Part shown: positions 7,570 to 12,734 of the stretch, piece by piece
How positions within the stretch are numbered: the stretch's first letter is position 1
Layout: every line of letters begins with the position of its first letter
Origin: a virus
Reading direction: 5' to 3' (one strand)
DNA length: 41,537 nt
IMG/VR virus record: IMGVR_UViG_3300044492_000001
Span: 1 to 41,537 of that record
The notes under the pieces: generated by a model
The model's database searches: none
Seen by the model: the letters and a program-made list of their open reading frames with translations, nothing else
Told to the model about the DNA's origin: nothing
Made by a program: the position numbers and the translations under genes

Positions 7570-10068
7570 ATGATGATTGCGCCGGTTGCCAACATCGGAG
7601 CCATGGATCGTGAACTACGAGCTTTGGCTTCTGCTGCTGGTCTTGATTATGACTGTGGTCCAGGCGGTCGCCTTGATAGCAGCATTGCTATTGTTGCAGA
7701 GGCACCTGGAGAGCGTGAGTGCAACCTTAAACAGCCGCTTATCGGTGGGTCAGGGAAGTACCTTTGGGATCGCTTACGTGCCGATCGCATCACGCGCAAC
7801 GATGTCTACATCACCAACGTCTGTAAGCGCAAACTGGTCAGCGCTGCGGACGGACACGACATCACAGACAAACAAGGGAAGGTGACACTTGGAAAACAAG
7901 AGCGCAGCTTCTGGCATCATCTACTTCGAGAAGAACTCAGCAGGCTGCCCAACCTGCAATATGTTGTGGCGCTTGGTAGTTATGCCCTCCAGGCACTCGT
8001 GGGATACGATGCTATATCAAAGGCACGGGGTTCTGTATTTCCAGTGGACATCGAAGGACGACGTATCCAAGTCCTGGCCACCTACAATCCCGCGCACGTC
8101 ATGCGGGAACCACGAATGGAAATAGTGTTCCGCTTCGACTTGGATAAGCTAGCTAGGCTACGTCGTGGAGAGTTCAGTGTTCCGAGTATATCCACACTCA
8201 TCAATCCATCCTATGCCGAAGCAATGGATGCGATCCGTTGGCTCCATACTACTACAGAGCCAATCGCCTATGACATTGAGACGATGGCTGGTGAGACTGC
8301 ATGTGTTGGCTTCGCAGCATCGAACACAGAAGCAGTATGCATTAACTTTCGTTCGCAAGGGCGCAATCACTATTCGCTGCATGAAGAGCGGGATATACGT
8401 CTGGCCATCCAAGGACTACTTGGCAATAAAGAACTTCGCTTCGTCACGCAGAATGGTCACTATGATGCGTCCTGGCTCTGGTTCAAAGATCGTATCAGGC
8501 CGCACGCACATTGGTTCGACACAATGTTGGCACACCATACTCTATTCCCATCGCTACCACATGATCTTGGCTTCATCACTGCACAGTATACCGACCATCC
8601 CTACTACAAGGATGAAGGCCAACTGTGGAAGGAACAAGGAGACATCGATGCCTTCTGGGAGTACAATGGCAAGGACTGCTGCATCACACGCATAGCACAT
8701 GAGTGTATGGAGCGAGAGCTACATGAGCACAAGATGCATGACTTCTTCCACAACCATGTGATGAAGTTGCAACCTCATCTCGTAGAGATGACAATGAATG
8801 GAGTGATGGCAGATGGCGAACGAAAGGATAGACTCAGCATCGAACTTGGAAGAGAACTTGAAGAGGCAAGACTACTATGCCAAGACAAGGCACGTGACTG
8901 CACTGGAGTACCAGATTACCAACTTAATCCCAACAGCAGTCATCAGCTCGCTGTGCTCTTCTTTGATGACCTGCAACTGGTCGGACGAGGACGTAGCACT
9001 GATAAAGAGAATCGTGACCGTATTAGAAAACATCCACGCACAAGCGCAGGAGCTAGAGAACTTGTCGCGGCCATTGATGAGTTTAAAGAAAGAGCTAAAT
9101 TCGTATCTACGTACGTCCATGCAAATGCAGATACAGACGGACGCTGGCGTGCAGCATGGAGACAAACAGGAGTCAGCCGTGCCCCCGGTAGACTGAGTAG
9201 CAGTCAGACTGCCTGGGGTAGTGGACTCAACATGCAGAACATACCTGAGAATGCAAAGGATATGTTCACGGCACCGTGTGGTTGGGAGTTCAGCTACTAC
9301 GACATGGCTCAGATTGAGGCACGCATCGTCGGGCACCTAGCTGGCATTGCAAAGTGGCAACACCAGTTTGAACAAGCGCGTTTGAACCCAGGATCATACG
9401 ATAGTCATTGCGCTTTGGCTGGGGATATGTTCAAGCTACCGTATGAGCAAGTTCCAAGACAAGATCGAGACGCTGACGGGAAGCCAACCATCAGGTATGT
9501 GGCCAAGCGGTGTCGCCACGGCCTCAACTATCGGATGGGACCAGACAGGCTTGTCACAGTCACAGGACTGTCACACGTCGAAGCTGAACAGGCTTATCGA
9601 CTCTACCACATGGCTAGTCCAGAGGTCCAACTGTGGTGGGATGACCTGCATGCACTCGTTAGACGGGAAGGGTCACTCACTACTTGTCTTGGAAGACGAT
9701 GGCTGCTGCTAGAACGCTTCGATGTAACTGCACTCGATAGCATCGTCGCATTCGAGCCGCAGTCCATCAATGGTGATTGGACTGCCAGTGTGATCTACAA
9801 GTGTCACACTGATCCTGAGTGGCCACCTACTGCACGCATCGTCATCAATGTTCACGACGCTACCATCGCACTCAACAAGCATGAGGACGGTGACGCTGTT
9901 CGTAGCATTATGAAGAAGCACGCAGAGATGCCATTGTATATCAATAGCGTAGCCAACAGGTTACGTGGTATACACGATCCCATGCCTCTAATCATACCGG
10001 CTGAGATGGGCGTGTCTCAACCTGACGGTAATGGGGTACACAGGTGGAGCAGCATCCACAAGCTGTGA
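7570..10068 (+). CDS. Family-A DNA polymerase with N-terminal uracil-DNA-glycosylase-like domain and 3'-5' exonuclease
   Basis: The 832-residue replicative polymerase shows three domains. Residues 33-195 resemble family 4-type UDG: AEAPGERE (43-50), PLIGGSGKYL, VYITNV, VVALGS and TYNPAHVMREP (171-181). The usual histidine of the H-P motif is replaced by N173. Residues 230-380 form a DEDDy exonuclease with D235 and E237, N295 to D299, and Y365/D369. The polymerase core has motif A D578 (YYDMAQIEAR), the O helix R642 to K646 with H650 where E. coli Pol I has F762, and motif C HD at 762-763 followed by alanine rather than glutamate. Two ATGs stand together at 7570 and 7573. It acts with the helicase and the SSB-like protein. 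Codon choice in the first 1.5 kb looks different from flanking genes. Confidence 0.93.
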   Translation: MMIAPVANIGAMDRELRALASAAGLDYDCGPGGRLDSSIAIVAEAPGERECNLKQPLIGGSGKYLWDRLRADRITRNDVYITNVCKRKLVSAADGHDITDKQGKVTLGKQERSFWHHLLREELSRLPNLQYVVALGSYALQALVGYDAISKARGSVFPVDIEGRRIQVLATYNPAHVMREPRMEIVFRFDLDKLARLRRGEFSVPSISTLINPSYAEAMDAIRWLHTTTEPIAYDIETMAGETACVGFAASNTEAVCINFRSQGRNHYSLHEERDIRLAIQGLLGNKELRFVTQNGHYDASWLWFKDRIRPHAHWFDTMLAHHTLFPSLPHDLGFITAQYTDHPYYKDEGQLWKEQGDIDAFWEYNGKDCCITRIAHECMERELHEHKMHDFFHNHVMKLQPHLVEMTMNGVMADGERKDRLSIELGRELEEARLLCQDKARDCTGVPDYQLNPNSSHQLAVLFFDDLQLVGRGRSTDKENRDRIRKHPRTSAGARELVAAIDEFKERAKFVSTYVHANADTDGRWRAAWRQTGVSRAPGRLSSSQTAWGSGLNMQNIPENAKDMFTAPCGWEFSYYDMAQIEARIVGHLAGIAKWQHQFEQARLNPGSYDSHCALAGDMFKLPYEQVPRQDRDADGKPTIRYVAKRCRHGLNYRMGPDRLVTVTGLSHVEAEQAYRLYHMASPEVQLWWDDLHALVRREGSLTTCLGRRWLLLERFDVTALDSIVAFEPQSINGDWTASVIYKCHTDPEWPPTARIVINVHDATIALNKHEDGDAVRSIMKKHAEMPLYINSVANRLRGIHDPMPLIIPAEMGVSQPDGNGVHRWSSIHKL

Positions 10069-10287: not shown

Positions 10288-10767
10288 ATGCCATTCGTAT
10301 CAGGCTACCTACGCATCCGTGGAAGCGGACATCCTGACAATGAGTTGCCAGAAGGTGAACAGGAAGTGGACCCTGGCTACGGTATCGAAGCAGGTGGTAG
10401 TGTAGACAACGAGTTGCCACGTCCACCACCGGGTGTGTTCCCTCCACCAGTGCCTGCACATCCTATCGTGATTGCACCACCGGGTGTACCACCTGGCACC
10501 ATCTGGCCGCCCATCAATCCTGCACGTCCTGACAACTCACTCCCTGGTGGTAGTGGTGGACAGCCAGACAACACACTGCCTGGAGGTAACAAGTTCTGGG
10601 TAGTAGTGTGGATACCTGGGTATGGATACAAGTATGTCTGTGTCGATCCCAGCTTGCAGATCAATGCTGGCCCAGCACATCCGCCTGCATCTGGCAACAG
10701 ACCGAGCAACGAACTGCCATCGACTGCTGAACCAAAGACTGAGAACCAGCCGAAGAAGCCAATCTAG
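10288..10767 (+). CDS. Proline-rich protein with five (P/V)(D/S)N-x-LP repeats
   Basis: The 159-residue protein starts at ATG 10288 with AGGAGG five bases upstream. Hexamer repeats stand at residues 16-21 (PDNELP), 39-44 (VDNELP), 81-86 (PDNSLP), 93-98 (PDNTLP) and 139-144 (PSNELP). They are separated by Gly/Pro-rich linkers. A single ordered-looking aromatic strand lies at 103-119 (FWVVVWIPGYGYKYVCV). There is no signal peptide or transmembrane helix. Similar low-complexity repeat proteins occur in other phages of Gram-negative bacteria, but no function is known to me. The repeats look like short linear motifs presented on a flexible chain, perhaps for multivalent binding. It lies between the Acb2-like gene and the PEP-CTERM gene, with gaps of under ten bases. 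Confidence 0.82.
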   Translation: MPFVSGYLRIRGSGHPDNELPEGEQEVDPGYGIEAGGSVDNELPRPPPGVFPPPVPAHPIVIAPPGVPPGTIWPPINPARPDNSLPGGSGGQPDNTLPGGNKFWVVVWIPGYGYKYVCVDPSLQINAGPAHPPASGNRPSNELPSTAEPKTENQPKKPI

Positions 10768-10776
10768 GAGATTGCC

Positions 10777-11427
10777 ATGTACAAATTGCTAGGCGCAGTC
10801 GCTGCGCTTGCACTCGTTGCTGTGCCTGCTAATGCAGCACTGATTGCTACATTCGGACAGACCTCTGGAAGTAACACAGTCGTAGCGACAGACAATGGAA
10901 CGGCAACTCACATTGTGGTTGACGATGCTATCACTGCTGTCACTACGTTCGCTAGTGGTCCTATTGGCAATGTCCAGTTCAGCCTGGATGCTACTAGCAC
11001 TGATGCTGCTGTGGCTGTAGGTGGTGCAATCATCCAGCACTACGGTGGCACCTTCTGCTTCACCAGTGCCATCAACTGTGGTGGGACCAACTACCTGAGT
11101 GGTGTGTTTGACGATGCTGCTTTCGGCGGGGCTGGTGGTCCTGGCCTTGTGGTTAATGCTAACAATCCGCCTGATCTACTGACACTGACCAGTGACGTGT
11201 TGACTGCTGCTCAGTTGGCTGCACCTAACAGCTTCAATCTGGGCTTCACTGACATCGCAACACCTCCTGGCCTGCACATCAATGGTACTACCATTGGTGC
11301 ATACACTGCATCGTTTGCTGGCAATGTGAGTGCATCGACTACTGCTGTGCCTGAGCCTATGTCTCTTGCTATGTTGGGTATGGGACTGCTTGGACTTGGG
11401 ACGATTCGTGTAGTCCGTAAGCGGTAG
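10777..11427 (+). CDS. PEP-CTERM sorting-domain protein (predicted exported)
   Basis: The 216-residue protein has an N-terminal Sec-type signal peptide (MYK, hydrophobic core to residue 16, likely cleavage after ANA at 18-20). The middle domain is Gly/Ala/Thr/Asn-rich and beta-like, with cysteines C94 and C101. The C-terminus holds the complete PEP-CTERM tripartite signal: VPEP at 191-194, a hydrophobic helix at about 196-211, and a basic tail RKR at 214-216. In bacteria an exosortase recognises PEP, cleaves, and routes the protein to the envelope or extracellular matrix. A phage copy implies a host with an exosortase. AGGAG upstream of the ATG supports the start. Possible roles include changing the infected cell surface, superinfection exclusion or matrix interference; none is shown. 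Confidence 0.9.
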   Translation: MYKLLGAVAALALVAVPANAALIATFGQTSGSNTVVATDNGTATHIVVDDAITAVTTFASGPIGNVQFSLDATSTDAAVAVGGAIIQHYGGTFCFTSAINCGGTNYLSGVFDDAAFGGAGGPGLVVNANNPPDLLTLTSDVLTAAQLAAPNSFNLGFTDIATPPGLHINGTTIGAYTASFAGNVSASTTAVPEPMSLAMLGMGLLGLGTIRVVRKR

Positions 11428-11474: not shown

Positions 11475-12734
11475 GTGGTCACTGTAGTGAACTACCAACG
11501 GCTGGTGCCTGCCAACTCATTCCTTGGCAGGTACCTTGCCTACATGCAGTCACAAGAGACATCCTCTTCATTCGACTTCTACTGTGCTCTGTGGTGCATC
11601 AGTACTGCATGTGGTCGCTTCACATACGTGCGGCGACCACGTGCGCCTGTCTACTTGAACACGTATGTTGTCCTAGTAGGAGAGAGTGGAGTTGTCAGGA
11701 AGACAACGAGTGTCAAGATCGCAACAAGAGTTGTCCGCTCTGTCATCGGTGGACAGAAGTCCATTGGACTGATCGATGCGAAGGTGACACCTGAGAAGCT
11801 AGATGAGATGCTACATGACAGGACTGAGACACATGGTCATGCTCAACTGGCTATTGCTGTGTCAGAGTTGGCTGTGTTCTTAGGCACTGAGGCATACACA
11901 ACACGTATGCCTACACTACTCACTGACCTGTATGATTGTCCTGATGAACGAGAAGGTGGTGGTACAATCGTACGTGGTCACGTCACACAGCGTAACATAT
12001 GGCTGTCATTCCTAGCTGCATCCACACCAGTGTGGCTGTTGAAGGCAGTCAATCCTAATGTCGTAGAGGGAGGCTTCACATCTCGGTGCTTCTTTGTCGT
12101 CTCCAATGAGCCAAAGAATCGCATCCCATGGCCAGAAGATCCTGACAAGGACTTGTTCCAAGACCTGTGTGATGACATGAAGATCATTCAGGCAGAGGCA
12201 GTCACACGTGGTGCCATAGATGTACACCGTGACGCAATCACAGTGTTCTCCAACTGGTACAACTCACGTGAGCATGCATTCGATACCTTCAAGCAGTCCT
12301 TTGAGGCACGTGAGGATGCACATGTGTTGCGAATTGCTGCACTCCTCTGCATCAATGATGGATCGTGGGACATCAAGAGGTCACATGTGAATGTGGCCAT
12401 CCGACTGGTCAGGGATGTCAAGGAGTCAGCAGGTAGCATCTTCGACAATGCAGAACTACGAACCAAGTATGCACAGGCATTGGACATTGTGCGTGCTCAA
12501 CTCATCTCACGTGGCATGGACCCAGTTCCACGACACATCCTCACTAGAAGGTGTCGCAATCATCTAAGCAATGAAGAGTTCCTGACACTCATCGAAGTGC
12601 TGCATGAGATCGGAGCCATCCAACGCTTTGCCATCCAAGGTGAAGCAGGTAGACCAACAGACTACATCCGTGGCACTAACCTACTGTTAGGCAGAGGATT
12701 AGGTGAGGCTGTATTGGATCGCTTCACTCACTGA
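11475..12734 (+). CDS. DUF3987-like P-loop ATPase (putative primase/helicase-type replication protein)
   Basis: The protein has up to 419 residues. The N-terminal part has a divergent P-loop GESGVVRKTTS at residues 69-79, with R-K-T replacing the canonical G-K-T. Further on come ELAVFLG, LLTDLYDCPD and a block WLSFLAASTPVWLLKAV followed by GGFTSRCFFVV, all typical of DUF3987-type phage replication proteins. The C-terminal region is helical and may hold a winged helix. The start is uncertain: GTG 11475 or GTG 11487, neither with a Shine-Dalgarno sequence, and the first abuts a GC hairpin. It is the last gene of the + arm and ends by overlapping the internal virion protein gene of the opposite strand by 7 bp. 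Confidence 0.75.
   Translation: MVTVVNYQRLVPANSFLGRYLAYMQSQETSSSFDFYCALWCISTACGRFTYVRRPRAPVYLNTYVVLVGESGVVRKTTSVKIATRVVRSVIGGQKSIGLIDAKVTPEKLDEMLHDRTETHGHAQLAIAVSELAVFLGTEAYTTRMPTLLTDLYDCPDEREGGGTIVRGHVTQRNIWLSFLAASTPVWLLKAVNPNVVEGGFTSRCFFVVSNEPKNRIPWPEDPDKDLFQDLCDDMKIIQAEAVTRGAIDVHRDAITVFSNWYNSREHAFDTFKQSFEAREDAHVLRIAALLCINDGSWDIKRSHVNVAIRLVRDVKESAGSIFDNAELRTKYAQALDIVRAQLISRGMDPVPRHILTRRCRNHLSNEEFLTLIEVLHEIGAIQRFAIQGEAGRPTDYIRGTNLLLGRGLGEAVLDRFTH

Follow-up and report, generated by a model that had tools for sequence, protein, structure and literature searches.

A PEP-CTERM protein gene exchanged among environmental phages, and its product as probable cargo of a host exosortase

The locus and its setting

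The window analysed here spans an entire virus record, 41,537 bases long (its completeness is not stated), in which positions 10777–11427 of the plus strand form an ATG-initiated open reading frame for a protein of 216 amino acids. This gene, referred to below as the PEP-CTERM gene, is flanked by genes for a DNA polymerase and a primase-like protein on the same strand, with the small gene c1 immediately upstream, while terminase, portal, capsid, tail and amidase genes occupy the window's other strand. The features of the locus are as follows:

7570–10068, plus strand: family A DNA polymerase with an N-terminal domain of the UDG superfamily (Pfam, PHROG)
10288–10767, plus strand: c1, a Pro/Gly-rich repeat protein of 159 amino acids from the ATG at 10288, ending 9 bases before the ATG of the PEP-CTERM gene
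10766–10771, plus strand: Shine–Dalgarno-like AGGAGA, overlapping the stop codon of the upstream gene (sequence)
10777–11427, plus strand: PEP-CTERM protein gene, 216 amino acids (open reading frame, profile matches, relatives in 111 viral contigs)
10777–10839, plus strand: predicted signal peptide, residues 1–21, with the cut after ANA or one residue further (sequence and alignment of relatives)
10840–11349, plus strand: mature body, residues 22–191, modelled as a β-barrel, with the cysteine pair C94/C101 (AlphaFold, cysteine counts, dN/dS)
11350–11358, plus strand: Pro–Glu–Pro motif, residues 192–194 (Glu and Pro in 65/66 relatives; TIGR02595 over cut-off)
11359–11406, plus strand: hydrophobic, putatively transmembrane stretch, residues 195–210 (modelled helix 196–215; hydrophobic in relatives)
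11407–11424, plus strand: basic end RVVRKR, residues 211–216 (sequence; a basic end is common to relatives)
11475–12734, plus strand: DUF3987/phage primase–helicase-like protein, downstream of the PEP-CTERM gene (Pfam, PHROG)

The ATG of the PEP-CTERM gene sits five bases 3' of AGGAGA. In the polymerase, residues 34–183 match the uracil-DNA glycosylase superfamily and are followed by 3'–5' exonuclease and polymerase domains. Because polymerase and primase-like genes flank it, phage structural genes lie in the same record and its G+C content (52.5%) matches that of the window (51.5%), the PEP-CTERM gene is to be read as phage DNA; the earlier attribution to a phage, made from this sequence alone, thus stands without recourse to a chimera.

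The sorting tag

The N-terminus, MYKLLGAVAALALVAVPANA followed at the predicted cut by Ala, reads as a classical signal peptide, and the C-terminal tail is VPEP-MSLAMLGMGLLGLGTI-RVVRKR; sequence and model indicate no membrane span between the signal peptide and the C-terminal helix. These are the parts by which a PEP-CTERM exosortase substrate is defined at the level of sequence: the tail elements plus an N-terminal signal peptide with no span intervening. The curated profile TIGR02595 matches the 216-residue protein at 18.2 bits (cut-off 16), whereas PF07589, at 19.6 bits, stays 1.1 below its gathering score of 20.7. The sequence-only reading had described a complete PEP-CTERM protein – signal peptide, novel β-like body and tail – and had named both profiles as a check; the description holds, with TIGR02595 in agreement and PF07589 falling just short. 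A six-frame search of the 41.5-kb record gave no TIGR02595 match besides this gene, which scored 22.6 bits (E 1.1e-5). As for the background rate, two of 50 viral records drawn by random 15-mer held a match, both to one protein unrelated to that of the window, and none of 14 control genomes matched.

The tag is well kept among relatives. Of the 66 relatives that are complete and differ from one another, 65 retain Glu-193 and Pro-194, although residues nearby vary, and 54 retain the first Pro; the exception to the Glu–Pro conservation (L090) breaks off at the start of unrelated sequence. Within a screened subset of 27, every tail is hydrophobic and has two or more basic residues at its end, and a simple signal-peptide screen passed 25 of the 27 N-termini. 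In L090 and L094 (about position 10481), the tail has been swapped for unrelated sequence ending in SASAVPGR.

Type I membrane proteins likewise combine a signal peptide with a C-terminal helix, and envelope proteins by which phages exclude one another are well known (PMC10883804, PMC9311878). The protein might therefore be a plain membrane-anchored exclusion factor, exported by Sec and held permanently by its helix, whose periplasmic barrel would block the entry of other phages' DNA while the PEP motif went unused. A plain anchor, however, would have no use for the Glu–Pro that 65 of the 66 relatives retain, and the same tag is found on neighbouring phage PEP-CTERM proteins whose bodies differ; we regard this reading as improbable. 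Neither PHROG nor PADLOC gave a match to the protein.

None of the named PEP-CTERM subfamilies (PepA, THxN, FxDxF, EDSAP-1 and others) scored above its curated cut-off. The best NCBIfam score was for the PepA-type family NF033554, at 40.9 bits under a family cut-off of 80, but homology of the body to PepA was rejected, the match disappearing once the tail is removed. The resemblance lies in tail and composition, since the relatives' bodies, taken by themselves, gave nothing in NCBIfam beyond a single hit at chance level (E 0.049).

A conserved body and a fast-changing tail

For the window protein and its closest relatives, the body shows dN of 0.03–0.08 against dS running from 0.7 to saturation, which is indicative of strong purifying selection on this part of the protein. 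Compared between the window and its four closest relatives, signal peptide and tail reach dN of 0.34–0.66, where the body has 0.04–0.08 and dS runs from about 1 to saturation, and within the closest group the tail stands at 0.18–0.52 against 0.03–0.08 for the body. With dS near saturation the dN/dS ratios are rough, but the roughly tenfold contrast in dN is clear: signal peptide and tail diverge about ten times faster than the body while retaining their features. It is this contrast that marks the tag as a signal kept in generic form and the body as the part that is apparently not free to change.

The same contrast bears on the suggestion, made in the sequence-only reading, that the protein acts by occupying the exosortase. 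A decoy of this kind would overload the enzyme and leave the host's own PEP-CTERM proteins unsorted, and the occurrence of two or three PEP-CTERM genes in several contigs would suit it. It should, however, have a conserved tail and a free body, and the opposite was found: divergence is concentrated in the tail while the body hardly varies, and a decoy would have no need of a strongly conserved barrel some 166 residues long. Because conservation sits in the body rather than the tail, occupation of the exosortase is disfavoured, and we consider a decoy very unlikely.

Cysteines in the mature part point in the direction of export. Among 66 relatives, 56 proteins have two, eight have none and two have four – an odd count never occurs – and C94 and C101 are both present in 57 of the 66, being elsewhere almost always lost together. 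Even counts and joint loss fit a disulfide, and hence a location of the protein outside the cytoplasm. In one relative (L028:9245-9838), the loop bearing both conserved cysteines has been cleanly deleted.

An AlphaFold model of the full-length protein (pLDDT 81.9) comprises an N-terminal helix, a β body and a C-terminal helix at residues 196–215; the mature part modelled alone, with 50 sequences, is a β-barrel (pLDDT 90.7, pTM 0.86). Foldseek returned nothing at E ≤ 0.001 from the PDB or from viral models, and a search by sequence for solved relatives gave none that was convincing (best E 0.076). In a comparison with dirigent, allene oxide cyclase and avidin-like folds by VIA-align, the best match was the cyclase PloI4 (Z 9.1, rmsd 3.4 over 120 residues), against Z 7–8 for dirigent and other barrels. 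The modelled fold is therefore a common barrel arrangement that names neither function nor ligand, since its matches are generic barrels.

Relatives and their carriers

Successive scans of IMG/VR identified 5, then 38, then 111 contigs encoding relatives, the last figure coming from one scan from which 80 contigs were kept; relatives are thus present in at least 111 viral contigs, most IMG/VR contigs being fragments. More divergent members of the family were found beside c1 genes. In cellular and other replicons the searches were negative: no bacterial or archaeal relative in two scans of 84,980 species genomes (the scans need a short conserved pattern first, so absence there is not proof), none among 72,556 plasmids and none among 50,697 GenBank phage records, which represent cultured phages. 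Across 49 contigs, the G+C content of the gene tracks that of the contig (39–65%, r = 0.95), and it would therefore seem that the carriers have held the gene long enough to adapt it.

The gene in the window is phage-borne, conserved and under selection, and its sorting tag is intact. The tag being a bacterial one, a fusion of host DNA with a phage contig – or a captured gene in decay – might be imagined, but relatives occur in 111 viral contigs and are often flanked by phage genes, the body is under strong purifying selection, G+C follows the phage, and the two pattern-based bacterial scans gave no relative. A chimera with host DNA was rejected on the numbers of viral carriers, their phage flanks and their G+C, and we consider either version extremely improbable.

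Movement between phages

When the window was compared by blastn with the contigs of its four closest relatives (L002, L003, L005 and L007), only the PEP-CTERM gene matched, at 75–82% over some 530–580 bases, together with a 56-base piece of c1 in L003. The surroundings differ accordingly among the four: terminase and c1 genes lie upstream in L003 and L007, the latter with a portal gene downstream, while L002 has a portal gene upstream and L005 a portal gene of a different type downstream. L003 and L049 have identical terminases and c1 proteins that are 99% identical, yet the adjoining PEP-CTERM proteins are only 61% identical. To judge from these comparisons, the gene is exchanged between unrelated phages; homologues in other phages, a check proposed in the sequence-only reading, occur in at least 111 viral contigs, with the tag kept. 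One relative (L021:162-830) looks recombinant, joining an L015-type signal peptide to an L012-type tail.

In a group of phages with a syntenic head module, the gene is found at six junctions – before c7, between c7 and terminase, between terminase and portal, between portal and head-morphogenesis genes, between the protease and the head gene that follows it, and behind the capsid gene. Its strand is shared by 80 of 85 recognised neighbours. Varied sites in related phages and lone-gene similarity between otherwise unrelated contigs are the marks of a moron, and the gene fits a moron riding phage operons because of its varied insertion sites, its exchange as a single gene, its same-strand neighbours and the adaptation of its G+C. 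The first-described morons typically have a promoter and terminator of their own; on the strand of the PEP-CTERM gene, a scan of the window for the sigma-70 consensus only – this phage's promoters may differ – detected neither. In L018 (13881-15233), a gene with a weak glycosyl-hydrolase match (PF11790) is inserted between portal and head-morphogenesis genes, and it is also present in L013.

The sequence-only reading had placed the gene in a replication operon and supposed that it acts early. Its position in the window fits that view, but in the group with the syntenic head module the gene is embedded, in the same orientation, among those for terminase, portal and capsid, a placement that points to late expression in these phages. 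As it often adjoins such genes, its product might also be thought a component of the virion, exposed on the particle. An exported protein should not, however, join capsids built in the cytoplasm; moreover, it has no PHROG match, and its gene has many insertion sites and travels by itself. We give a virion role very little credence.

The neighbouring gene c1

The protein encoded by c1 features DN-x-LP and related repeats, a conserved middle and C-terminal segment and no signal peptide. It matched nothing in Pfam, PHROGs or PADLOC and was not found in GenBank phages, but one scan detected it in 147 viral contigs; by these searches, c1 is an undescribed Pro/Gly-rich repeat family of environmental phages. 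In 14 stretches holding both genes, c1 and the PEP-CTERM gene were adjacent in 10, against 2.4 expected, and 10,000 shuffles never reached 10. An obligate partnership was nonetheless rejected as a general rule, 59 of 73 c1 stretches being without a recognised PEP-CTERM gene; full records of such stretches held a PEP-CTERM gene over cut-off in 13 of 50 cases. We read c1 as a frequent companion of the PEP-CTERM gene but not a required partner.

Other tagged cargo and the exosortase

TIGR02595 matched over cut-off in 27 of 30 carrier records. In more than ten contigs the first PEP-CTERM gene is joined by another, or by two, encoding unrelated bodies. Runs of two or three such genes, with several unrelated bodies, occur in L026, L034, L056, L070, L071, L073, L076, L078, L084, L089, L096 and L100. 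The tag would on this view be a module placed on many bodies. Two randomly drawn records, L250 (G083) and L251 (G096), encode a different phage PEP-CTERM protein with a low-complexity N-terminal extension of the reading frame.

No exosortase over cut-off was found in the 30 carrier phage records, so the cutting enzyme would have to be the host's. A candidate in the L031 record was rejected, at 15.5 bits lying below cut-off and falling in short, low-complexity reading frames without the features of the family.

The cargo might instead serve the host, as a surface protein that – like SasX – aids sticking, flocculation or survival of the infected or lysogenic cell. Bacterial PEP-CTERM proteins do drive flocculation (PMC9850573), and one neighbouring phage protein (L027:819-1586) reaches 112 bits with the profile of the bacterial XDD4 family, which has a cut-off of 40 and is curated as exosortase-dependent. 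Among the window genes scanned, on the other hand, there was neither integrase nor repressor (the record may be a fragment, and small reading frames were only partly covered), and placement among head genes suggests late lytic expression. We hold a host-benefit moron to be about as improbable as the plain membrane anchor.

Proposed mechanism

The explanation we favour, with confidence slightly above even, is that the gene is a mobile phage moron and that its product, as cargo of the host exosortase, alters the host surface; it assumes that the host has such an enzyme. PEP-CTERM proteins leave the cytoplasm through Sec, are anchored by their C-terminal helix and are thought to be processed by an exosortase, which they need; they fasten exopolysaccharide to cells and bring about flocculation (PMC1569441, PMC9850573, PMC12188702). 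From these known pathways, export and exosortase cleavage of the window protein would be expected. Sec would export it, with the signal peptide cut near the junction of ANA and the following Ala; the β-barrel would fold outside the cytoplasm, usually with one disulfide (C94–C101), while the C-terminal helix held the protein in the inner membrane; and the host exosortase would then cut at the PEP motif and pass the barrel to the outer surface or its exopolysaccharide, where it would coat or bind a conserved component of surface or matrix. This would come late in infection where the gene sits in a head module, and perhaps earlier in the phage of the window.

The likeliest gain would be an altered outer surface to which fewer phages adsorb, whether these are superinfecting phage or progeny otherwise lost to cells and debris, or else changed clumping. 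Of the effects suggested in the sequence-only reading, a block to superinfection and a remodelled matrix may both apply. Its target should be common to many hosts, for example a surface polysaccharide, rather than one phage's receptor, because the body hardly varies among phages whose structural genes differ – a pattern that also counts against our explanation in so far as it is unlike a phage-specific receptor block. The parts of the proposal differ in strength: export and sorting of the protein we hold to be likely, with considerable confidence, whereas a surface effect as the selected function is only a little better than an even proposition, and any single effect less than that. More tentatively, and at somewhat below even confidence, environmental phages may share a freely exchanged pool of exosortase cargo – many bodies, one tag – that coats the infected cell or its debris through the host's exopolysaccharide-linked sorting, a general strategy not described before.

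Were this so, viruses would exploit the exosortase pathway, with a cargo family under strong selection that was not found here in plasmids or, by pattern-based scans, in cell genomes, and phages would have a new route for altering the host surface besides lipoproteins and inner-membrane proteins. It is predicted that carrier phages infect exosortase-positive hosts. The phage family also offers a small, foldable model substrate for exosortase. Exosortases and PEP-CTERM cargo are widespread in environmental Gram-negative bacteria, and their purpose is known in few cases.

Comparison with known systems

The closest parallel is with the PEP-CTERM/exosortase (EpsH) substrates of Gram-negative bacteria, defined by TIGR02595 and PF07589 (Haft 2006, PMC1569441). 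Like these, the window protein combines a signal peptide, no other span, a Pro–Glu–Pro motif, a hydrophobic helix and a basic end with a body of no known homology; unlike them, it is encoded by a phage, its gene is mobile between phages, the phage records searched hold no exosortase, and a single body family is nearly frozen. With the PepA-type flocculation proteins (NF033554; PMC9850573) it shares the type of tail, below the cut-off of that family. What is new, therefore, is the carriers and the body family; the tag was already known.

In the open-access literature, we found no paper in which phages employ the host exosortase pathway to alter the infected cell's surface, which is probably what this gene represents, and none on phage-encoded PEP-CTERM proteins save a passing mention: among cell-derived genes of Yellowstone viral contigs, 13 TIGR03118 proteins were noted with a putative exosortase-interaction C-terminus (PMC11003980). 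These are an earlier sighting of an exosortase-type C-terminus in viral contigs, although TIGR03118 is not among the NCBIfam matches of the window protein.

Two further systems resemble the proposed one in role or logic. The phage T5 lipoprotein and Cor inactivate FhuA, according to work cited in PMC9311878; they are phage-encoded, act at the envelope and alter adsorption, which is a feature of theirs and a proposal here, but the T5 protein is lipid-anchored whereas that of the window bears a PEP-CTERM tag. SasX, an LPXTG surface protein on a staphylococcal SPbeta-like prophage (PMC8655729), is likewise a phage-carried substrate of a host sorting enzyme, differing in that it is Gram-positive, prophage-borne and dependent on sortase A and LPXTG.
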